Shown here one piece after another: positions 710-31,657 of a DNA stretch of 32,609 bases. Position 1 is the stretch's first letter. Every line of letters starts with the position of its first letter. This DNA comes from Acidobacteriaceae bacterium. GTDB taxonomy: Bacteria; Acidobacteriota; Terriglobia; Terriglobales; Acidobacteriaceae. The notes beneath the pieces are model-generated. The model searched no databases. It was given only the letters and a program-made list of their open reading frames with translations, and was not told where the DNA came from. The translations under genes were made by a program, and so were the position numbers. The stretch is taken from contig PLOI01000055.1 of NCBI GenBank assembly GCA_003142015.1, positions 1-32,609 on the forward strand, read 5' to 3'.

Positions 710-787
710 TCTCTCTCTTCGTTCATTTCATGATGTGCCTTTTCTCTTCCCGTGATCGCCGCGCAGAACGCGGCGCAAAGGCTGTAT

Positions 788-2074
788 ATGAAGCAGAGAT
801 TTCCCTTCTACATTGCGTTGGCAGTGCCCGCGCTGGTTATTCTCACGGCGGCGCTGTGCCCGGCGGAAGAGAGCCTCACCTGGGACCAGGTGAAGGCAAA
901 GTTTGAAGCGGCTAATCCCGCGCTCAAAGCAGACGCCCTGAGCGTGGACGAGATGAAGGCCGCGGAGATTACAGCTTTTCTGCGGCCCAATCCAACGGCC
1001 TCATTCACCATGGACCAGCTCTATCCGTTCGGAGCGCACTACGATCCCAACCTTCCCGGCACGCGCTATCGCCCGCTGAGCAATGCGCTCACCACTGGGT
1101 CAGTCAGCTATCTCTACGAGCGCGAGCACAAACGCGATTTGCGATTGAAGAGCGCCAAGGAAGGCACTGAGATTGCGCAGTCAGAGCATATCGACCTGGA
1201 GCGAAACCTGATCTTCAACCTGCGTTCGTCCTTTGTTGAGACGCTGGAAGCCAAGGCGGTGCTGCAGCTGGCCAAGGCCGACCTGGCTTACTACGACAAC
1301 ATCATCAAGATCAGCCGCGACCGTTTTCGCGCCGGAGACATTGCCAAGATCGATCTGGACCGCATCGAGCTGCTGCGCGTCCAATATGAAGTGGAGATAC
1401 AGGCAGCCATCGTCAATCTGCGCACCTCGAAGATCCAGCTTCTGCAACTGCTGAACGAGAGGACGCCGGTGGAGCAGTTCGATGTGACCGGCGTCTTCGA
1501 CTTCACAGACGATCTGAAGCCTCTGGAAGACTTCAGGCAAATCGCGCTGGACGAGCGGCCCGATCTGCGCGCGGCGCTAGAAACCATCCAACAGGCCAAG
1601 ACCAACCGCAAGCTTGCCCAGGCTAACGGCTCCGCGGACCCCACCTTCAGCGTGGATTCGGGCGCAAATCCTCCGCTCGATCAGTACGTCGGCTTCAACG
1701 TCAGCATTCCACTGCGCATCTTCGACCGCAACCAGGGCGAGAAAAAGCGCACGCAGATTGATATTGGCCGCACGACGGAATTAAGTGAATCGGTGCGCGC
1801 CGAGGTTTTCAGCGATGTGGATTCGGCCTATGTGCAAGTGGAGAGCAACATCGCGCTGCTGCGGCCCTACAAGGCGCAATACAAAGAGCAGGCGCTGAGG
1901 GTGCGCGACACGGTGACTTATTCTTACCAGCACGGCGGAGCTTCGCTGATGGATTTTCTGAACGCGCAGAGCGATTACCGGGCCGTGGAACTGGCATACC
2001 TGCAACTTGTCGGCTCTTATCTGACAGCTGCCGGACAACTGAATCTTGCCGTGGGACGCGAGGTAATTCAATGA
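788..2074 (+). CDS. TolC-family outer-membrane efflux channel (CzcC/CusC-like)
   Basis: This is the outer-membrane factor of a tripartite RND efflux pump, about 428 residues as expected for the OEP family. The track starts at GTG 752, but the ATG at 788 is preceded by CAAAGG at a good distance and begins a clean signal peptide (MKQRFPFYIALAVPALVILT, cleavage near CPAEE). Two OEP repeats follow: the first contains the long helical region around ERNLIFNLRSSFVETLEAKA, the second the region around DERPDLRAALETIQQAKTNR. The phrase NVSIPLRIFDRNQGEKKRTQ is typical of the metal-efflux branch. The gene overlaps the next one by ATGA (2071-2074), so translation is probably coupled. Substrate specificity cannot be read from this subunit. 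Confidence 0.88.
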   Translation: MKQRFPFYIALAVPALVILTAALCPAEESLTWDQVKAKFEAANPALKADALSVDEMKAAEITAFLRPNPTASFTMDQLYPFGAHYDPNLPGTRYRPLSNALTTGSVSYLYEREHKRDLRLKSAKEGTEIAQSEHIDLERNLIFNLRSSFVETLEAKAVLQLAKADLAYYDNIIKISRDRFRAGDIAKIDLDRIELLRVQYEVEIQAAIVNLRTSKIQLLQLLNERTPVEQFDVTGVFDFTDDLKPLEDFRQIALDERPDLRAALETIQQAKTNRKLAQANGSADPTFSVDSGANPPLDQYVGFNVSIPLRIFDRNQGEKKRTQIDIGRTTELSESVRAEVFSDVDSAYVQVESNIALLRPYKAQYKEQALRVRDTVTYSYQHGGASLMDFLNAQSDYRAVELAYLQLVGSYLTAAGQLNLAVGREVIQ

Positions 2075-3252
2075 TCTCGAATTCTTCTTTGAAGCAATGG
2101 CCTAAGACTCCTTCTGCTTACTTTCTGACTGCGTTATTTTTTCTGGTGCTTGCAGGGAGCCTGGCGCTCACCGGCTGCAAAGGCAAGGACGAGGGCGAGG
2201 GCGCGCCGCCGCCGGCACGCGTGATCGAAGTGCATGACATGAACCTGATCACGATAGACAGCAAAGACGCGGGAAAGTTTCCGCTGGCCACGGCCGAAAA
2301 GATTGAGGCGCCGTCGGAGTTGAACGCGACGGGAGCGGTTTTGCCGGATATTGCGCGCGAGGTTCCCGTCATCTCGCTGGCCAATGGGCGCGTGGTGGAC
2401 ATCAAGGCGCGCCTGGACGACAACGTGAAGAAAGGCCAACTGCTACTGAAGGTGCAGAGCCCGGACATTACAAACGCTTTCGACACGTACCTGAAGGCGG
2501 CCAACGACGAGCAGCTTGCCAACAGGGCGTATATCCGCGCTGAAGATCTCTTCAAGCATGGCGCCATCTCGCAGTCGATGCTGGAGCAGGCGGAAGATAC
2601 GGAGAAGAACGCGCAAGCGGATCTCACGGCTGCCGAAGAGCAATTGAAGACGCTGGGCGTGGACAAAAAGCACCCCAGCAGCGTGATGAATGTCTATGCG
2701 CCGATCTCGGGCGTGATCGTCGCGCAAAATGTTACGCAGGCGGCTGCGGCCGGCGTCAGTTTGTCCGGCTCTGCAACGGCCTTTACGATTGCCGATCTAT
2801 CGAGAGTCTGGATCGTCTGCGATGTCTATGAGAATGACATTCCCAAGCTGCAACTTGGCCAGGAAGCGAAGATCAAGGTGAATGCCTGGCCTGATCGCCC
2901 ACTTACTGGACGCATCAGCGACATTGGCCCCATTCTCGATCCATCGCTTCGCACCGCGAAGGTGCGCATCGAGGTTGCCAATCCGGGCTTCCTAAAACTT
3001 GGGATGTTTGCCACGGCCACGTTCACCAGCCGCGTCAAGGAGACGTATGCAGCAGTTCCTGCCGACGCCGTCCTGCACCTGCACGACCGCGACTGGGTCT
3101 TTTTGCCGGCCGGCGGGAACCAGTTCAAACGCACCGAGGTCCATGCTGGGCGGATGCTGAGCGGAAACCGGCAGGAGATTCTTTCCGGCCTCCAGCCGGG
3201 CCAACAGGTGGTCACCAACACACTTCTGCTTGAAAACGCGGGGAACCAATAG
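2071..3252 (+). CDS. RND efflux periplasmic adaptor lipoprotein (CzcB/CusB-like)
   Basis: This is the membrane-fusion adaptor that joins the inner-membrane pump to the outer channel; it has 393 residues. After a basic N-terminus and a hydrophobic stretch there is a lipobox, SLALTGC, with Cys at about residue 36, so the protein is probably lipid-anchored. A lipoyl-like region (NGRVVDIKARLDDNVKKGQL) is followed by an alpha-helical hairpin (about 130-185), the returning half of the lipoyl domain (MNVYAPISGVIVAQNV), and beta-barrel and membrane-proximal domains (LSRVWIVCDVYENDIPKL). All are standard HlyD/CusB elements. No long His/Met-rich metal-binding extension is visible, unlike many CusB proteins. 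The start overlaps the channel gene by four bases, and the stop abuts the pump start at 3253. Confidence 0.88.
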   Translation: MISNSSLKQWPKTPSAYFLTALFFLVLAGSLALTGCKGKDEGEGAPPPARVIEVHDMNLITIDSKDAGKFPLATAEKIEAPSELNATGAVLPDIAREVPVISLANGRVVDIKARLDDNVKKGQLLLKVQSPDITNAFDTYLKAANDEQLANRAYIRAEDLFKHGAISQSMLEQAEDTEKNAQADLTAAEEQLKTLGVDKKHPSSVMNVYAPISGVIVAQNVTQAAAAGVSLSGSATAFTIADLSRVWIVCDVYENDIPKLQLGQEAKIKVNAWPDRPLTGRISDIGPILDPSLRTAKVRIEVANPGFLKLGMFATATFTSRVKETYAAVPADAVLHLHDRDWVFLPAGGNQFKRTEVHAGRMLSGNRQEILSGLQPGQQVVTNTLLLENAGNQ

Positions 3253-6200
3253 ATGCTTCGCGCACTCGTCGATTTTGCACTTAAAAATCGCTGGCTTATT
3301 CTTGGCGGCACGGTGGTGCTCATTGCCTGGGGTATTGTTTCGTTTCGCAACCTGCCTATCGAGGCCTATCCGGACGTCGCCAATAACTATGTCCAGATCA
3401 TCACCCAGTGGCCGGGCCGCAGCGCGGAGGAGATCGAGCGCCAGGTCACCGTGCCAATTGAGATTCAGATGGCGGGCATTCCCCACCTGGAACATCTGCG
3501 CTCGACAACGCTGGCCGGCTTGTCGAGCCTGATGTTGGTCTTCGACGACAACTCCACCAGCGACATGAACCGCGAGCACGTGCTGGAGCGGCTCAGCATG
3601 GTCAGCCTGCCCGCTGGCCTGGTGCCGCAGATGGGCACGGACTGGAGCCCTGTCGGCCAGATTTACTGGTACACGCTGGAGAGCACGAATCCCGCCTTCG
3701 ACGTGATGGAGAAGAAGTCGCTGGAAGATTGGACTCTGGAAAAATCTTTCAAGGGCGTCAACGGCGTGGTGGATGTATCGAGCTTCGGCGGACCGACGAA
3801 GGAATATCAGATTAAGCTCGACCCGGAGAAGCTGGTCTCCTACGGGCTGAGCATCAGCCAGGTAGAGCAGCAGATCGCCAACAACAACACCAACGGCGGC
3901 GGCAGCTTCATCGAGCAAGGCGCGCAGCAGATCAACGTCCAATCCGTGGGCCTCTTCACCAGCGTGCAGGACATCGAGAACACCGTCGTCAAGACCCAGA
4001 ATGGCGCGGCAATCAAGGTCAAGGACATCGCAACCGTTACGCAAGGCCCAAAGATTCGCCTGGGGCAGATCGGCAGGTCAACACACCTGACAGACAGCGC
4101 GGGCGACAGGATTATCGACAATCCTGACACTGTCGAAGGTATCGTGCTGCTGCAGAAGGGCGACGACTCCGATCCTGTTCTTGACGGCATTCACAACGAA
4201 GTGGACAAGCTGAACGGAGACAAAGACCACCCCGGCATTCTGCCCAAAGGCGTGAAGATCGTTCCGTTTCTTGACCGCTCCGATCTGGTCAAGTTCACAG
4301 TGGAAACCGTCGAGCGGAATCTGACCGCCGGCATTCTCCTCGTTTCGATCATTCTCTTTCTCTTTCTGGGGAATGCGCGCGGCGCCATTGTGGTTGCGCT
4401 CACCATCCCCTTTGCGCTTCTATTCGCGTCGATCTGCCTCGACCTCAGCCACATTCCCGCCAACCTGCTTTCGCTGGGCGCGCTGGACTTTGGAATGGTT
4501 GTGGACGGCAGCGTGGTGATGATCGAGAACATGGTCCGGCATCTGTCATTGAAGGACGACCTGCGCACCCCGGCGCAGAAGATCCGCGACGCCGCGCACG
4601 AAGTGCAACGGCCGGTCTTCTATGCGCGCGGGATCATTATCGCCTCCTATCTGCCCATTTTCACGTTGCAGGCGGTGGAGGGGCGACTCTTCAAACCCAT
4701 GGCCTGGACAGTGACCTTTGCGCTGCTGGGCGCGCTCCTTTTTGCCATCCTTGTTGCTCCCGTGCTGGGCGGCATCGTTTTCAGAAACGGCGCAAAAGAG
4801 TGGAGGAACCCGCTGATGGATTGGCTCACCGGCCACTATCGCACCGCGGTACGCGGGGGGATTCTGCACCGCAAGATCACGCTGGGCATCTGCGGCGCTC
4901 TGTTTGCCTTTGCCGTTTTTCTTGCCTTCGGCGGACCTATCGGCTCGGAGTTTTTGCCCCATCTCGACGAGGGATCCATCTGGGTGCGCGGGACATTGCC
5001 ACCCAGCGAAGGCCCCACCGCAAGCATCGATTTCACCAACAAGGCGCGGCTTGTGATGGCCTCCTTCCCTGAGGTCATACAGGTGGTCAGTCAGACCGGC
5101 CGCCCCGATGACGGCAACGACACTACCGGCTTTTTCAACACCGAATACTTCGTCGATTTGAAAAGAAAAGAGCAGTGGCGGCCCGGTTTTCACCAGAGCA
5201 AGGAAGCGTTGATCACGGCAATGGACAAACAGCTCTCCCAGTTTCCCGGCGTCATCTGGAATTACTCGCAGCCGATCTCCGACAACATGGAAGAGGCAGT
5301 CTCCGGCGTCAAAGGCGAGTTGGCCGTCAAACTTTACGGCGACAATCTGCGCAAGCTGGAGGAGACGGCTGAATTGATCCAGACTCAAATGGCCACAGTG
5401 CACGGCATCGAGGATCTTGGCATCTTCCGCATCGTGGGCCAGCCCAACCTGAACTTTACAGTGGACCGGGAAGCCGCGGCGCGATGGGGCATCAACGTGG
5501 CCGACATTCAGGACGCGGTGCAGACAGCCGTGGGCGCCAATGCTGTGACCCAGGTGCAACAGGGCGAGGCGCGCTATGATGTGACGCTGCGCTATCAGCA
5601 ACAGTACCGCGACACACGGGAGGCAATCGAAGGCGTGCGCCTGCTGGCTCCCAGCGGCGAGCGGGTTTCTCTGGCTCAACTCACAAAAGCCTCGACCGAC
5701 GACGGCGCGGAACAAATCAATCGCGAAGGAGGCCAGCGTTATATTGCCATCAAGTACTCCGTGCGCGGCCGCGACCTGGGCTCAACGGTGGAAGAGGCCA
5801 TTGGCAAGGTGGAGCACAATGTGAAACTGCCCTCCGGCTATCACCTGGAGTGGGCAGGTGAGTACGCCAGCCAGAAGCGCGCGGACAAGCGAATGGCGTT
5901 GGTGATTCCCATTACCGTGCTGGCCATCTTCCTCATTCTCTACACCATGTTTCGCTCTTACAAGTGGTCAGCGCTGGTGCTCGTCTCTGTCATCATGGCA
6001 TCAATTGGCGGTCCGCTTGCGCTGTTCCTCACCCACACCAACTTTTCGGTTTCTTCCGAGGTGGGCTTCCTGGCGCTCTTTGGCGTCTCAGTGGAAACGG
6101 GCGTCATCATGATCGAGTTCATCAACCAACTGCGCGCGCGACGAAAGGGAACGGAAGGGTTCAGCGAGGAACACGTCATAGAGGCCGCTGTCGAGGGCTC

Positions 6201-6435
6201 GGTGCAACGCCTGCGTCCCATCATGATGACGATGCTTGTGGCCACGCTGGGCCTGCTGCCCGCGGCGCTTTCTCATGCCATCGGTTCAGACTCGCAACGC
6301 CCGTTTGCGATTGTCATCGTCGGCGGCCTGATTGCAAACCTGGTGATTGGCATCTTCCTGATGCCCACACTTTACGTCTGGATGGCTCGCGAGAACGATA
6401 TTCTGCCAGAAGTAGACGTCAGCAAGGATTCCTAG
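3253..6435 (+). CDS. Heavy-metal RND efflux pump, CzcA-like (HME family)
   Basis: This proton-driven inner-membrane transporter expels divalent metal ions through the tripartite complex. It has 1060 residues, the normal length for the family. It has the expected layout: TM1 at the N-terminus (RWLILGGTVVLIAWGIVSF), a first periplasmic domain, TM2-6 from about residue 355, a second periplasmic domain, and TM8-12 near the end. The TM4 signature reads LDFGMVVDGSVVMIEN, with both Asp and the Glu used in proton relay in CzcA-type pumps. This DFGxxxDGxxxxxEN form is associated with divalent-cation (Co/Zn/Cd/Ni) HME classes, in contrast to the GAMVDAAIVMIEN form of the Cu/Ag pump CusA. Metal specificity therefore probably differs from the Cus-type operon at 28344 onward. 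The start codon directly follows the adaptor stop with no gap. Confidence 0.9.
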   Translation: MLRALVDFALKNRWLILGGTVVLIAWGIVSFRNLPIEAYPDVANNYVQIITQWPGRSAEEIERQVTVPIEIQMAGIPHLEHLRSTTLAGLSSLMLVFDDNSTSDMNREHVLERLSMVSLPAGLVPQMGTDWSPVGQIYWYTLESTNPAFDVMEKKSLEDWTLEKSFKGVNGVVDVSSFGGPTKEYQIKLDPEKLVSYGLSISQVEQQIANNNTNGGGSFIEQGAQQINVQSVGLFTSVQDIENTVVKTQNGAAIKVKDIATVTQGPKIRLGQIGRSTHLTDSAGDRIIDNPDTVEGIVLLQKGDDSDPVLDGIHNEVDKLNGDKDHPGILPKGVKIVPFLDRSDLVKFTVETVERNLTAGILLVSIILFLFLGNARGAIVVALTIPFALLFASICLDLSHIPANLLSLGALDFGMVVDGSVVMIENMVRHLSLKDDLRTPAQKIRDAAHEVQRPVFYARGIIIASYLPIFTLQAVEGRLFKPMAWTVTFALLGALLFAILVAPVLGGIVFRNGAKEWRNPLMDWLTGHYRTAVRGGILHRKITLGICGALFAFAVFLAFGGPIGSEFLPHLDEGSIWVRGTLPPSEGPTASIDFTNKARLVMASFPEVIQVVSQTGRPDDGNDTTGFFNTEYFVDLKRKEQWRPGFHQSKEALITAMDKQLSQFPGVIWNYSQPISDNMEEAVSGVKGELAVKLYGDNLRKLEETAELIQTQMATVHGIEDLGIFRIVGQPNLNFTVDREAAARWGINVADIQDAVQTAVGANAVTQVQQGEARYDVTLRYQQQYRDTREAIEGVRLLAPSGERVSLAQLTKASTDDGAEQINREGGQRYIAIKYSVRGRDLGSTVEEAIGKVEHNVKLPSGYHLEWAGEYASQKRADKRMALVIPITVLAIFLILYTMFRSYKWSALVLVSVIMASIGGPLALFLTHTNFSVSSEVGFLALFGVSVETGVIMIEFINQLRARRKGTEGFSEEHVIEAAVEGSVQRLRPIMMTMLVATLGLLPAALSHAIGSDSQRPFAIVIVGGLIANLVIGIFLMPTLYVWMARENDILPEVDVSKDS

Positions 6436-6479
6436 AGAGGTTCTCATAAATGGCCGCTGCGTCTCCGTTGCAATCCCTC

Positions 6480-6534
6480 AGGGGTTGAAACCCCTTGTGT
6501 ATAAGACTTCTTTCGGCACGACTGAAGTCGTGCC
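6480..6534. repeat. Paired hairpins between convergent genes; possible bidirectional terminator
   Basis: Two perfect hairpins lie in the gap between two convergent genes: AGGGGTT-GA-AACCCCT (6480-6495) and GGCACGACT-GA-AGTCGTGCC (6515-6534). Both use the same GA centre, so the loop would be UGAA in RNA. Other copies of this hairpin class in the window have different stem sequences but the same centre. There is no long T-tract, so classical intrinsic termination is uncertain. Confidence 0.6.
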
Positions 6535-6597
6535 CTGACACAAGGCCGGCGTTCTCGGCAGGATTCTTGAGCGGATTCGGCTGAGCGCGCCGCGTTC

Positions 6598-9631: not shown

Positions 9632-9735
9632 CATTCCTTCCGGGGCTAAAGCCCGCGTTGGTTCTGCTGACTTTATGCGGGGGTTGAAACTCCCGTCTCC
9701 CTCCGGATCGAGTTTATTCGGAGACTGTAAAGACC
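9632..9735. repeat. Paired-hairpin intergenic repeat, copy 2
   Basis: Hairpin one is GGGCT-AA-AGCCC (9643-9654). Hairpin two is GCGGGGGTT-GA-AACTCCCGT (9677-9696), in which two of nine pairs are G-U wobbles. The following CCCTCCGGATCGAGTTTATT (9700 region) is nearly the same as in the copy at 24517-24600. The wobble pairs keep the fold at RNA level but not at DNA level. Confidence 0.75.
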
Positions 9736-10965: not shown

Positions 10966-11127
10966 GCTAAGGAACCTCTGAATGAGCCCGTGTTGTAAGG
11001 CCACACTTCCTCAGGGGCTAAAGCCCACGTTGGTTATGCCGCATTTACGGCGCCCTTCGGCTGCGCTCAGGGCAGGCTTTAAAGCCGCGCCCTTTCAAAA
11101 CTCCGACTTAATCAGAGGTTCCTTAGC
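10966..11127. repeat. 162-bp element with perfect 16-bp terminal inverted repeats (MITE/REP-like)
   Basis: The left end GCTAAGGAACCTCTGA (10966-10981) is the exact reverse complement of the right end TCAGAGGTTCCTTAGC (11112-11127). Inside are GGGCT-AA-AGCCC (11015-11026), GCCGCATTTACGGC just after, CCCTTCGGCTGCGCTCAGGG and the perfect palindrome GGCTTTAAAGCC (11075-11086). It has no coding capacity. Parts recur at 8-21, 24409-24460 and 24630-24656, so it is a family. No obvious target-site duplication is seen at the ends. Confidence 0.8.
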
Positions 11128-14004: not shown

Positions 14005-14166
14005 ATAACATAGCCTCGCATGCCTGACCTTGCATTCTGGTGTTCATCCGAATACAAAGGCGGCCGTGTACTATATATATATTATTGCCGCTCTGGCTGG
14101 CTATGGAAATTCACTCTGCTTTTGCGGTTTTCCGGAAGCAGCCATCAGGACCGGAGGTGGTTGACT
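14005..14166. promoter_or_regulatory. Divergent control region between DeoR-type repressor and cupin isomerases
   Basis: This 162-base gap separates divergently transcribed genes. It contains an AT-rich patch, TGTACTATATATATATTATT (about 14067-14086), suitable for a plus-strand -10 region, about 80 bases before the strong GGAGGTG ribosome site at 14153. I could not find a convincing -35 or a clear palindromic operator. Confidence 0.35.
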
Positions 14167-14739
14167 ATGATCTCTAGCGGAGACTACGCGCCCCCGGAAG
14201 CTCAGATCGATTGGCTGACCGGGATGATGCGCGGCTCAGCCGTTCAAGAGGCAACGAAAACGCTGAGAGATATGGCAAGGTTGTTTCACGACGCCGATTC
14301 GCTGCGCCGCATGGATGAAAACACCGTAGTGTACCGCGTTCAGTGGACGGAGCCAGTGGCACAAGGAACGACGGGCGGCCTCTTTTGGGGATCGACAATC
14401 ATTGAGCCCGGCCGAGTAGGCGATGAGTACTTTATGACCCATGGCCATTTTCATTCAAGGCGCGACCGGGGAGAATATTACGGCACCATCGGCGGCAAAG
14501 GCTTGCTGGTACTTATGGATGAGAGCCGCGCCACCCGGACCGATGCGATGTTCCCTGGAAGCCTGCACTACATTACCGGCGGCCTTGCGCATCGCGTCGT
14601 AAATACCGGCGATGAACCATTGCTTTTTGGGGCATGCTGGCCGAGCGATGCAGGCCACGACTATTCATCGATAAAGGCCAAAGGATTTGGGGCGCGCGTC
14701 CTGCTTCGCGGCGGAGGGCCCGCAGTGATACACGCTTGA
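14167..14739 (+). CDS. Cupin-type glucose-6-phosphate isomerase family protein
   Basis: This 190-residue protein belongs to the archaeal-type cupin phosphoglucose isomerase family (Pfam GPI), which interconverts glucose 6-phosphate and fructose 6-phosphate using a bound metal. The ATG at 14167 is chosen over the track start at 14020 because GGAGGTG lies seven bases upstream and the extra 49 residues look non-coding. The metal-binding motif is clear: THGHFHSRRDRGEYY, with the two His and the Glu of cupin motif 1. Cupin motif 2 is GGLAHRVVNTGDEPLLF with the last His. The end, DAGHDYSSIKAKGFGARVLL, matches the family (DAGHDY...KGF). It is unrelated to the usual bacterial PGI. A second paralogue follows 66 bases downstream. 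The substrate may be another sugar phosphate; isomerase chemistry is well supported. Confidence 0.85.
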   Translation: MISSGDYAPPEAQIDWLTGMMRGSAVQEATKTLRDMARLFHDADSLRRMDENTVVYRVQWTEPVAQGTTGGLFWGSTIIEPGRVGDEYFMTHGHFHSRRDRGEYYGTIGGKGLLVLMDESRATRTDAMFPGSLHYITGGLAHRVVNTGDEPLLFGACWPSDAGHDYSSIKAKGFGARVLLRGGGPAVIHA

Positions 14740-14805: not shown

Positions 14806-15582
14806 ATGCCGTTTTATCCTCAACTCGATATTCGGCTCAGCGCCGGACCGCTCGCATTTGACTACGGTCAAGGCGTCTTCGGCCCTTATCCGGAGTTACG
14901 CAGCCTGGATGCCATCCGCTATAGTTTGCTCTCTCCAAACTGCGATGGCCCCGATCCTGTTTATTGCATCGCGATGGATGTAAGGCGGAAAGAACATACC
15001 GAGGCGCTAAGGCAGCGGATGTTGCTGTTCGGAGTTGTTGCTTATGAAAGCGGGCGGCTGGGCGATGAGCCGGTTCGCAGCCAGGGCCATGTTCATGCCA
15101 TAGCTCCCCACTGCGGATGGTCCACTCCAGAACTTATCGAGATATGGCAAGGAAACGCCATCATCTATGCGCAAGAGAAGGTGCTTGACGATCCTGGCCA
15201 CTGCGTAGCAATTGAGGCCGGCCCTGGAGACAAGGTTGTTATCCCTCCTGGCTGGGCGCACTGCATCATCAATGGAAATCCAGAGGCCCGGATGATGTTC
15301 GGAGCATGGTGCGACCGGCAATATGGATTCGATTATGATGATGTGCGCGCGCATGGTGGACTGGCTTGGCGTCCACTCCTGCGGGAAGACGGCATAGAAT
15401 GGCAGCGCAACTCGACTTATGCGCCCTCTCGACTGGTATGCAGAACCGCTCGCGCTTATCCTGAACTGGGCGTATCGGACGCACTGCCCATCTATGAACA
15501 ATTTGCGCGCGATCCGAGCTCCATGCAGTGGGTCTCGGAACCGGCAGCAGTGGAAGATATCTGGGATGCCTTTGAGCCTTGA
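14806..15582 (+). CDS. Second cupin phosphoglucose-isomerase-like protein
   Basis: This 258-residue paralogue of the preceding gene has a longer N-terminal and C-terminal extension. The cupin core is visible: VRSQGHVHAIAPHCGWSTPE followed by LIEIWQGNAIIY, then VIPPGWAHCIINGNPEARMM with the motif-2 His, and CDRQYGFDYDDVRAHGGLAW, which corresponds to the DAGHDY...KGF end of the family. Motif 1 has an insertion (GHVHAIAPHCGWSTPELIE) between the His pair and the Glu compared with the first copy (GHFHSRRDRGEYY). That could change substrate choice. There is no good Shine-Dalgarno at the ATG, so it may depend on translation of the upstream gene. The last 60 residues are poorly conserved. It ends 18 bases from the convergent DUF4185-like gene. 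Confidence 0.78.
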   Translation: MPFYPQLDIRLSAGPLAFDYGQGVFGPYPELRSLDAIRYSLLSPNCDGPDPVYCIAMDVRRKEHTEALRQRMLLFGVVAYESGRLGDEPVRSQGHVHAIAPHCGWSTPELIEIWQGNAIIYAQEKVLDDPGHCVAIEAGPGDKVVIPPGWAHCIINGNPEARMMFGAWCDRQYGFDYDDVRAHGGLAWRPLLREDGIEWQRNSTYAPSRLVCRTARAYPELGVSDALPIYEQFARDPSSMQWVSEPAAVEDIWDAFEP

Positions 15583-24424: not shown

Positions 24425-24656
24425 ATTCCTGCTGTAAGGCCATATTTCCTCAGGGGCAGAACAGGCTGCGGAAAAACTCGGGATTTCGTGTGAAATTGAC
24501 TGGGAATTTCCCTCCGGGGCTAAAGCCCGCGTTGATTCTGCTAGCATTATGCGGGGGTTGAAACCCCCGCCTCCTTCCGGACCGAGTTTATTTGCAACCT
24601 GTGAAACCCCTTGTTTCCCCGGCCCTTTCGGCATCCTTCGGCCGCGCTCAGGGTTT
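24409..24656. repeat. Composite intergenic repeat, paired hairpins plus element ends
   Basis: The left part (from AGAACCTCTGAAT to TTCCTCAGGGGC, 24410-24456) matches 10972-11018 of the inverted-repeat element at most positions. Then come GGGCT-AA-AGCCC (24517-24528), the perfect hairpin GCGGGGGTT-GA-AACCCCCGC (24551-24570), and CTTCGGCCGCGCTCAGGG (24636-24653), which again matches the element. It fills the whole gap between two convergent genes and overlaps the last codons of both. Confidence 0.75.
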
Positions 24657-28127: not shown

Positions 28128-28169
28128 TGAATTGTTTCCCACGGTTGTGTGTCAGGTTGCATGAACTTT

Positions 28170-28236
28170 CCCTCGGGGGCTAAAGCCCCGTTGATTTTGT
28201 TTGGCTTATGTACGGGCTGAAGCCCGTACCCTCAAA
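28170..28236. repeat. Paired-hairpin intergenic repeat, copy 4
   Basis: GGGGCT-AA-AGCCCC (28176-28189) is followed by the perfect nine-pair hairpin GTACGGGCT-GA-AGCCCGTAC (28210-28229). The second stem differs in sequence from the copies at 6515, 9677 and 24551 while pairing is kept. It lies directly upstream of the Cus-type operon promoter. Confidence 0.75.
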
Positions 28237-28265
28237 TTGACCCATTACCTTTTCCACGGTAAAAT
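28237..28265 (+). promoter_or_regulatory. Probable sigma-70-type promoter of the Cus-type operon
   Basis: TTGACC (28237-28242) is followed by an optimal 17-base spacer and TAAAAT (28260-28265), each five of six consensus bases. Transcription would begin near 28272, about 70 bases before the first gene at 28344. Confidence 0.55.
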
Positions 28266-28766: not shown

Positions 28767-30071
28767 GTGAAACCAATTTATGTTTTAGCGCCGCTTATCT
28801 TAGCGGCGTCAGTAATCTGCCTGGGGCAGACTGAGCCGCCTGCCGTCTCGATGCCAGTTCCGGCCGCTCGGCCTTTGTCAGTGGATGAGGCGGTCGCGGA
28901 AGCTCTCGAGGCCAATCCTGAAATCCAGGCGTCTGTACGGCGGCTGTCGCTGGCGCAACTCAAGACCACAACCGCGCGCAGCCTCGACGACCCGATGCTG
29001 ATGGTGCGGGACTGGGATACTCCGCTGCGCCAACCATGGGATGTGAACCAGGCGCAGCTCATGTTCAGCGTGCAGCAAACATTTCTGAGCAAAGAGAAGC
29101 GGGATGCGCGAGCCAGGATTGCGGGCGACGATGTGGAAGTGGCATCGAGCGAGCTGGAATCGCTGCGGCAGGAAGTTTCAGCAGACGTGCGCGAGGCGTG
29201 CGCTGACCTGAAGCGCAACGCGGACGAGATGAGGGTGCATGACCGGCAGGCGGCGCTGCTGAAAGAGGCCCTGGCCGCGGTGCTTGCGCAATACACCACG
29301 GGCAAGGTTCCCGAGGCAGATGTGCTGCGCGCGCAGATGGCGCTGACCCGGCTGAGCGAACACCTTATTGAACTTGAAGAAGAGCGGGACAACGCGCGCG
29401 CCCGGTTGAATACGCTGCTGGGACGGCCGCCGGACGAGGCAGTGGAGATTGCGGGTGAGTATGCGATCCCGGCGGAGCTTCCGCCCATTGAAGAACTGGA
29501 GCGGTTGGCAATCGAACACCGGCCGGAACTCGCGGCGCAGCGCAAACTGCTGACGAAATCGCGTGATCAGGAGCAGTTGACGCGGCTAGCGATGAAGCCT
29601 GACTTCACTTTAGGCGCCGGCTATATGGTGATGCCGTCCGGCTCCGCATCGCGCAACGCCTATATGGCGGAACTGACGATGAATCTTCCTTGGCTGAATC
29701 GCGACCGCCATCAAGGCGAAGCGAAGCAAGCCGATGCGGCAACCGCGGTGACGCAAGCCGAACTTGATGCCAGAGCGTCAGCCGTGTTTCTCGAAGTGCG
29801 GCAAGCGCAGATTGAGACGCTGGCCGCAGAGAAGCGAGTGAAGGTGTATCGCGACACGCTGCTGCCGCAGGCCGAGACCACATTCAAGGCTTCAACCGCC
29901 GCTTACCAGAACAATCGAGCAGAGTTTCAGACGCTTATCGACAGCCAGAACCTGTTGCTGGAGATTCAGACCGCTTATTACAAAGCATTGTCGGCCACAG
30001 ATGCCGGCATCGCGGGATTGGAACGCGCCATCGGCGCACAACTTCCGGGCACAGAGAGGACAAGCAAATGA
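28767..30071 (+). CDS. TolC-family outer-membrane channel (CusC-like)
   Basis: This 434-residue outer-membrane factor belongs to the second metal efflux system. It starts at GTG 28767 with GGAG upstream and a signal peptide (MKPIYVLAPLILAASVICLG). Two OEP repeats are visible: the first from LSVDEAVAEALEANPEIQAS with the helical stretch ESLRQEVSADVREACADLKR, the second from LERLAIEHRPELAAQRKLL. The phrases LTMNLPWLNRDRHQGEAKQA and RAEFQTLIDSQNLLLEIQTA are typical of the heavy-metal branch. It overlaps the adaptor gene by ATGA (30068-30071), suggesting coupled translation. It is only distantly similar to the channel at 788-2074, so the two operons are not a recent duplication. Confidence 0.88.
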   Translation: MKPIYVLAPLILAASVICLGQTEPPAVSMPVPAARPLSVDEAVAEALEANPEIQASVRRLSLAQLKTTTARSLDDPMLMVRDWDTPLRQPWDVNQAQLMFSVQQTFLSKEKRDARARIAGDDVEVASSELESLRQEVSADVREACADLKRNADEMRVHDRQAALLKEALAAVLAQYTTGKVPEADVLRAQMALTRLSEHLIELEEERDNARARLNTLLGRPPDEAVEIAGEYAIPAELPPIEELERLAIEHRPELAAQRKLLTKSRDQEQLTRLAMKPDFTLGAGYMVMPSGSASRNAYMAELTMNLPWLNRDRHQGEAKQADAATAVTQAELDARASAVFLEVRQAQIETLAAEKRVKVYRDTLLPQAETTFKASTAAYQNNRAEFQTLIDSQNLLLEIQTAYYKALSATDAGIAGLERAIGAQLPGTERTSK

Positions 30072-31657
30072 CTACAAAGGAAGCAAAATTGATTGCGTGG
30101 GGCGCAGGGGCCGGAGTGCTGGCTGCCTCGCTGATTGGCGGAATCTTCGCCGTACGAGGAGCGCATACGTTTGCAGTCGAACCGGCATCGGCGGCCGCGC
30201 GCTCCAACTCAGGCGCACGGCCGGAGGCCGGCGCAGCGGCAACTTCGGGGACGCAGCCCGGCACAACCGTCGAGCTGACACCTGCTGAGATTACCGCTGC
30301 GGGAGTGCAGATTGCCGAGGTTCGCGCCGTATCCCTGAAGACAGACATCGCAGCCTTTGGCAGAGTGGCGCAGCCTGAGGCGCAGCTGGCCGCAGTGAGC
30401 GCGCGCATCGGCGGCCGCGTGGACAAGCTCTATGTGCAGTTCACCGGCGAACACGTGCGACGCGGCCAGGCAGTGGCCGATTTATATAGCCCGGAAGTAG
30501 CGACGGCTGTCGAGGAATATCGCCTGGCCACAGATAACATCAAGCAACTGCATCAATCGGACGATGCCTTTGCGCGCCAGCAGGCCGACGCGCTGGTCGA
30601 AGCCAGCGAGCACAAGCTGGAGCTTTGGGGCATTTCAGCCAAACAGATCAATGCGCCGGAGACAAGCGGCATCCCGCACGTGACTATTTACGCCTATGCG
30701 GGCGGGACGGTTGTGGAGCGCAAGGTGACGCAGGGGCAATATGTGAACGCCGGCGACACACTGTTCACTCTCGCCGACCTGAGCCAGGTTTGGGTGATGG
30801 CCGATGTGTATGAAGAACAGTTGCCGCAGATTCGCGACGGTCAGGAGGTGGACATCACGGCGGAGGCACTGCCGGGCCGGACATTGCACGGGCACGTGGA
30901 CTTTATTGAGCCCTCCGCGAACCCGCAGACACGCACTGTGCCCGTGCATGTGCATGTCGCCAATCCAGGAATGAGGCTGTTGCCAGGAATGTTTGTAAGC
31001 GCCACCTTTGTGAGCCGCGCAGCGGCGCCGGCTATCGTGGTTCCGCGCTCGGCGGTGCTGGATACGGGCACACACAAGCTTGTGTATCTGGCCAGGCCCA
31101 ACGGCGTCTTCGAGGCAAGAGAGGTGCAGGTGGGCGCACCCAATGAAGATTTGTACCCGGTTACCAGCGGACTGGCCATGGGCGACAAGGTGGTGCTCAA
31201 CGGCAACTTCCTGATCGACTCGCAAGCGCGCTTGAGTTCGGGCATGTCGGGTCTCTACGGCGGATCGAAGGAGTTTGCCGCGGACCAACAGGCGCAGCCA
31301 GCTTCCTCATCCGCTGCCGGCACGAACGCGGAGGCGGCCGCGGCGAAGATCGAATTCCATGCGGAGCCCGATCCGGTGAAGGCTGGCGAGGACAATCTCT
31401 TCCACGTGAAGCTGACTGATGCAAGCGGAAAACCGATCCCGGATGCGCGCGTGACGGTTTCACTCATTATGCCCGCGATGCCTTCGATGGGCATGCCGGA
31501 GATGAAGAATTCCTTCGATCTGCCGTGGATGGCAGCCCACCAGATGTATATGGGCAAAGGCCAGCCACCAATGGAGGGCACTTGGAGTGTCCTGGTCGAG
31601 GCGCGCAGAAACGGCAACGTGATTGCTTCCTTTCACACTCATTTGAGCGCGAAGTAG
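30068..31657 (+). CDS. CusB-like periplasmic adaptor with C-terminal YtkA/FixH-like domain
   Basis: This 529-residue membrane-fusion protein has an N-terminal membrane anchor ([20 protein letters not shown]) and an Ala/Gly-rich linker. The adaptor body has the lipoyl-like motif [32 protein letters not shown], barrel strand [18 protein letters not shown] and a membrane-proximal domain up to about residue 400. After a second Ala-rich linker (about 400-425) there is an extra domain of about 100 residues: [20 protein letters not shown], then [18 protein letters not shown] and a terminal FHTHLSAK. This resembles the YtkA/FixH-like beta-sandwich. Its Met-rich run ([12 protein letters not shown]) and His residues suit Cu(I)/Ag(I) binding, an inference. 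The first four bases overlap the channel gene, and the pump gene begins eight bases after the stop. Confidence 0.88.

Follow-up and report, generated by a model that had tools for sequence, protein, structure and literature searches.

Paired hairpins repeated through an Acidobacteriaceae genome are very probably REP elements read by a single-strand DNA transposase

The hairpin pairs that recur along the window, meaning the whole stretch of 32,609 nucleotides analysed here, are very probably (about 0.9) REP elements whose hairpin is recognised by a single-strand DNA transposase, and not structured RNA. REP elements are understood here as short non-autonomous DNA repeats that would be spread and processed by RAYT/TnpAREP proteins of the HUH Y1 superfamily. 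In the window the unit measures 75 nt, lies on the + strand and has the architecture CCCTC(A/C)-hp1-~21 nt-hp2-tail, where hp1 is a short hairpin of 5-6 pairs, mostly GGGGCTAAAGCCC, and hp2, about 21 nt further on, a long one of 9 pairs; both carry the loop T(A/G)AA and stand in the same (direct) orientation. Four intact pairs (6480, 9643, 24517 and 28176) and one degenerate copy (11015) were found, as follows.

6472..6544, + strand: class B paired-hairpin element, probable REP (covariance model E 7.5e-20); hp1 AGGGGTTGAAACCCCT at 6480-6495, hp2 GGCACGACTGAAGTCGTGCC at 6515-6534, tail CTGACACAAG
9633..9706, + strand: class A paired-hairpin element, probable REP (covariance model E 5.2e-23); hp1 GGGCTAAAGCCC at 9643-9654, hp2 GCGGGGGTTGAAACTCCCGT at 9677-9696 with two G.T pairs, tail CTCCCTCCGG
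10966..11127, no strand assigned: degenerate copy inside a 160-bp TIR element (covariance model E 3.8e-13, match 11005-11101); GGGCTAAAGCCC as hp1 at 11015-11026, second half decayed
24507..24580, + strand: class A paired-hairpin element, probable REP (covariance model E 6.8e-25); hp1 GGGCTAAAGCCC at 24517-24528, hp2 GCGGGGGTTGAAACCCCCGC at 24551-24570, perfectly paired, tail CTCCTTCCGG
28167..28239, + strand: class C paired-hairpin element, probable REP (covariance model E 1.3e-18); hp1 GGGGCTAAAGCCCC at 28176-28189, with GGGCTAAAGCCC at 28177-28188, and hp2 GTACGGGCTGAAGCCCGTAC at 28210-28229

The original prediction had placed GGGCT-AA-AGCCC hairpins, each followed by a nine-pair hairpin, at 9643, 24517 and 28176, with a related pair at 6480 and two G-U pairs in one copy; positions and sequences were accurate throughout and the two wobble pairs lie in hp2 at 9677-9696, while the copy at 11015 had been overlooked. 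Allowing up to two mismatches, GGGCTAAAGCCC matched 10 times in the window against 3.3 expected, a count that 0 shuffles reached. The hp2 stems form discrete classes, each with its own tail: GCGGGGGTT with CTCCCTCC, GGCACGACT with CTGACAC, GGCACGGCT or GGCACGGAT with CTTTCAAA, GTACGGGCT with CCTTCAA, and CAGGGGCCT with CTCCCTCC. Since the copies at 9643 and 24517 have a common stem class, the window holds three stem classes and not four. Among the surrounding features, a short repeat, CCTTCGGC.GCGCTCAGGG, adjoins two of the hairpin pairs (11050-11072 and 24628-24653), neighbouring genes at 14020-14739 and 14806-15582 both belong to the cupin-type glucose-6-phosphate isomerase family, and CusCBA-like efflux gene sets lie near both window ends (752-6435 and 28767-31657), both with an outer membrane protein and an adaptor and the 752-6435 set with an AcrB-type pump.

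The elements are abundant well beyond the window. Genome-wide, GGCTRAAGCC occurred 164 times as compared to 33 times for the reversed control. Gathering the genomic copies and building a covariance model, the check proposed along with the original prediction, was carried out with a model derived from 39 aligned copies. In the metagenome-assembled genome (MAG) of 3.4 Mb to which the window belongs it gave 142 matches at E<=1, or about 140 copies. For 24 further genomes of the genus the same search detected from 17 to at least 119 copies per genome, as compared to almost none in the other family of the order (4 copies in one genome) and 90 copies in one genome of another family of the same class. 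According to a simple home-made gene finder, 30 of 31 classable copies are intergenic in a genome that is about 81% coding. Among the papers listed by a literature search for the motif GGCTAAAGCC, none dealt with it as a repeat.

The stem covariation is real and the fold is under selection. Changes on both sides of a pair were seen at 11 of 15 pairs, a figure biased upward by the choice of members for their pairing, and the signal was lost when the partners were slid against each other. In 150 copies picked by tail and loop and not by pairing, 114 retained eight perfect Watson-Crick pairs. Moreover, the loop was TGAA or TAAA in 64 of 88 hairpins with a perfect 8-bp stem and a 4-nt loop, which were picked regardless of loop, albeit from element-enriched stretches of own-genome loci. 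Compensatory stem changes around a constant loop indicate that the fold itself is selected, so the proposal that the stems differ yet pair around a fixed centre is borne out. The further claim that this reflects selection rather than simple copying holds for the fold; the stem classes, however, are few and discrete with many near-identical copies in each, and within a class the copies are partly the product of simple copying.

Evidence on the nature of this selection comes from the transposase genes. The genome contains ten Y1 genes, one of which (locus L046) lies between two outward-facing hairpin pairs, with 29 bp of hp2 and tail inverted around the gene and 100% identical on both sides. The encoded protein scored 109.5 bits against NCBIfam NF047646 (REP-associated tyrosine transposase, HUH/Y1; cut-off 80), a model matched by 22 of 22 aligned members, and 29.8 bits against the IS200 model, which is below its cut-off of 55. 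The best solved relative of the RAYT proteins is TnpAREP 4er8, and their alignment shows invariant H57 and H59 (HUH), W92 and Y113, the Y motif being YIxxNP. At 30 RAYT loci of the genus, flanking hairpins pointed outward in 46 cases versus inward in 3, with outward hairpins on both sides at 19 loci and on one side at 8; the 80 loci surveyed across Acidobacteriaceae, which include some contigs of the 30-locus set, gave 99 outward versus 21 inward flanks. The flanking hairpins lie close to the gene and face outward in many genera, and the inner unit there likewise consists of two direct hairpins. By contrast, 0 outward TRAA hairpins were found at the eight other Y1 genes of the genome that were tested. 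The YxHRNP-type RAYTs of the genome were considered as the cognate enzyme and rejected, as they have different flanking repeats and no outward TRAA hairpins; other REP-like palindromes (e.g., GGGTGCCCCATCCTT) flank YxHRNP-type transposases at loci L042, L045, L047 and L049.

Furthermore, stem and transposase have diverged together. The 58 RAYT flanks carry 25 distinct stems, and on the RAYT protein tree the stem label requires 14 changes, compared to a mean of 33.3 and a minimum of 29 after shuffling. The loop T(A/G)AA is present in all 25 stems, having been required by the flank scan, but it also prevails in the 88 own-genome hairpins picked regardless of loop. Two observations count against the REP reading: among the RAYT loci surveyed, none was seen flanked by class A, the commonest class in the window, and the own genome, an 88%-complete MAG, yielded no transposase for class B.

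These observations also bear on the possibility that a DDE-type transposase moves a larger TIR element (MITE) of which the hairpins form the interior, with RAYT flanking due to incidental insertion near the gene. Such longer units do exist: the one at 10966..11127 has terminal inverted repeats CTAAGGAACCTCTGAAT... / ...ATCAGAGGTTCCTTAG with TA at both ends and encloses a hairpin pair, and a unit of the same type (L050, 1363-1490) is inserted in a RAYT pseudogene, as seen by comparison with L047. In both, the ends are near-perfect inverted repeats of the AGGAACCTCTGA type, accompanied by a TA/TTA duplication. However, outer inverted repeats are not a general trait, being confined to a small number of class A and TIR-type copies, in most copies the sequence beyond the core is hardly conserved, and neither the short-distance, outward flanking of RAYT genes in many genera nor the agreement of stem class with the RAYT tree favours this explanation, which we regard as very unlikely. 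The longer TIR unit could represent either a composite or a MITE that hitch-hikes.

Even less likely is a structured RNA (an sRNA, a cis-regulatory or a 3'UTR element) running from hp1 towards hp2 and selected for a two-hairpin fold with UGAA/UAAA loops; an RNA fold was what the original prediction had suggested. Compensatory stem changes around a constant loop and the two G.U pairs in one window copy would agree with it; however, constraint at the DNA level can produce covariation as well, hence covariation alone is no proof of RNA. Selection on a + strand RNA should make decay of G-C pairs to G.U exceed decay to A.C, whereas the decayed pairs of the 150 copies picked by tail and loop comprised 22 G.T and 21 A.C, so neither strand shows a tolerance of wobble and an RNA wobble signature is missing. 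The Rfam search over the elements gave no family match. Position and orientation are not conserved either: when the intergenic space of the 9643 copy was compared with syntenic loci having both neighbour genes, the intact pair was missing in nearly all, the closest of them (L131) retaining an apparent decayed inverted remnant and two others (L132 and L145) an other-class element in opposite orientation. Copies are spread over tandem, divergent and convergent gaps approximately in proportion to the frequency of each (home-made gene finder), and in gaps between tandem genes 7 run with the genes and 12 against, i.e., there is no fixed gene polarity. The flanking HUH transposase, whose phylogeny predicts stem class, accounts for the same facts that had suggested RNA. 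The evidence thus points to selection of the fold in single-stranded DNA and not in RNA, while an additional RNA role of the elements is possible. Least likely is that the host positions the hairpins at the ends of its genes to act as factor-independent terminators or to stabilise mRNA. This would suit the largely intergenic location and resemble secondary roles reported for REPs elsewhere (PMC6006769), but a U-run is absent after both hairpins, the three types of gap are occupied roughly in proportion to their frequency and the elements are gained or lost at syntenic sites.

How a DNA-level REP reading could yield the observed pattern is suggested by loop and foot. On the complementary strand the loop reads TTYA, and hp2 is followed by CT (AG on the opposite strand) in 51 of 58 RAYT flanks, giving the feet GGAG, TCAG and AAAG. 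As GTAG/GTGG is absent and the final AG alone is kept, the elements are a REP-like variant and not canonical GTAG REPs. Purified Marinomonas TnpAREP (TnpAMb) requires a TTNA loop in which T, T and A are essential and position 3 is free; a whole-stem complement swap affects its cleavage moderately, mismatches reduce cleavage seriously and the GTAG foot bases guide the choice of cleavage site (PMC8266576). These rules would yield the free but paired stem, fixed loop and fixed AG seen here, provided that the Acidobacteriaceae enzymes obey them, as we infer by analogy. Following this, we propose that the TTYA strand becomes single-stranded, e.g., at the replication fork, and that the hairpin folds, whereupon RAYT would bind it through its TTYA loop and, next to hp2, the NNAG foot, and would then cut and rejoin it. 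This scheme presumes that the enzyme binds and cleaves the hairpin, which strand it uses and that the element is mobile. The stem would need only to pair, and its sequence could therefore drift by compensation and diverge along with each transposase lineage.

In two genomes element orientation is linked to local strand composition. It agrees with the sign of the local GC skew for 45 of 47 copies in G005, and in G000 for 31 of 35 using 8-kb windows and 27 of 35 using 20-kb windows, whereas in a genome with nearly no skew (G004) no relation was found (26 of 53). On the complete chromosome G071, orientation follows two arcs (65 of 82, p 0.002); agreement with evenly spaced skew windows, which lie too far from the elements, was 47 of 82. 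In the skewed genomes the G-rich strand carries TRAA and not TTYA, which, like the lack of bias in G004, counts against the REP reading. In G005 and G071 the skew changes sign many times along the contig, which is unusual for a two-replichore chromosome, and third-codon-position GC skew is very strong, with mean absolute values of 0.31 (G005 loci L240-L279) and 0.23 (G071 loci L340-L359). Replication-coupled insertion has been reported for IS200/IS605 (PMC6006769), and the orientation bias, assessed here against local skew and, in G071, by position on the chromosome, would be compatible with it. It is conceivable, though doubtful, that the hp1+hp2 unit is a minimal single-strand transposon with hp1 and hp2 as left and right ends, like those of IS200/IS605, which a domesticated RAYT would move in trans and which would insert with a replication-tied strand bias.

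REP/RAYT systems as such are known; the form found here is unusual in its lack of GTAG and its direct hairpin pair, both of which count against the REP reading, and in its many stem classes. The closest likeness is to REPtrons of the group 3 type from Stenotrophomonas and Marinomonas (PMC8266576, PMC2817692), which share high-copy intergenic perfect palindromes, a flanked HUH Y1 gene and REP-transposase co-divergence; TTYA here agrees with the TTNA needed by TnpAMb, and the foot ends in AG as GTAG does. They differ in the foot (GGAG/TCAG/AAAG here instead of GTAG) and in the unit, which here comprises two unequal hairpins in direct orientation. Likewise, REPINs/BIMEs are inverted REP pairs, whereas hp1 and hp2 are direct in the 39 aligned copies, an orientation implied by the search. 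IS200/IS605 ends and their non-autonomous derivatives resemble the present elements in that their two subterminal hairpins share one polarity, the enzyme is of the HUH Y1 type and strand-biased insertion is expected; here, in contrast, the RAYT gene lies between outward inverted copies instead of a left/right end pair, and its protein stays under the IS200 model cut-off. The TnpA Y1 class 3 of Solibacter and Planctomycetes (PMC6006769) is similar in the atypical high-copy structures around an Acidobacteria Y1 gene and differs in Y motif (YVxxEQ versus YIxxNP here) and foot (CnGA versus NNAG). Within the same phylum, PMC3733652 describes TIRtrons with TIRYT genes, including some from Koribacter, Terriglobus, Acidobacterium and Granulicella, which have a tyrosine transposase with inverted, partly double-palindromic flanks and no GTAG. 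It reports few repeated families, one being that of K. versatilis ORF1552, whereas each of the 25 genomes considered here has tens to >100 copies, the two systems being compared by description.

Taken all together, these results illustrate that covariation within a repeat family can arise at the DNA level, where an HUH transposase would read loop and foot and not the stem. REP-transposase co-divergence is hereby extended to a large, well-sampled, GTAG-less family with many stem classes, of which about 25 natural stem variants form a set for testing recognition by loop and foot, and the link between orientation and strand composition provides a test of replication-coupled REP spread. If the two-hairpin, minimal-transposon reading were true, the REPs of Acidobacteriaceae would bridge IS200/IS605 ends and REP/REPIN systems.
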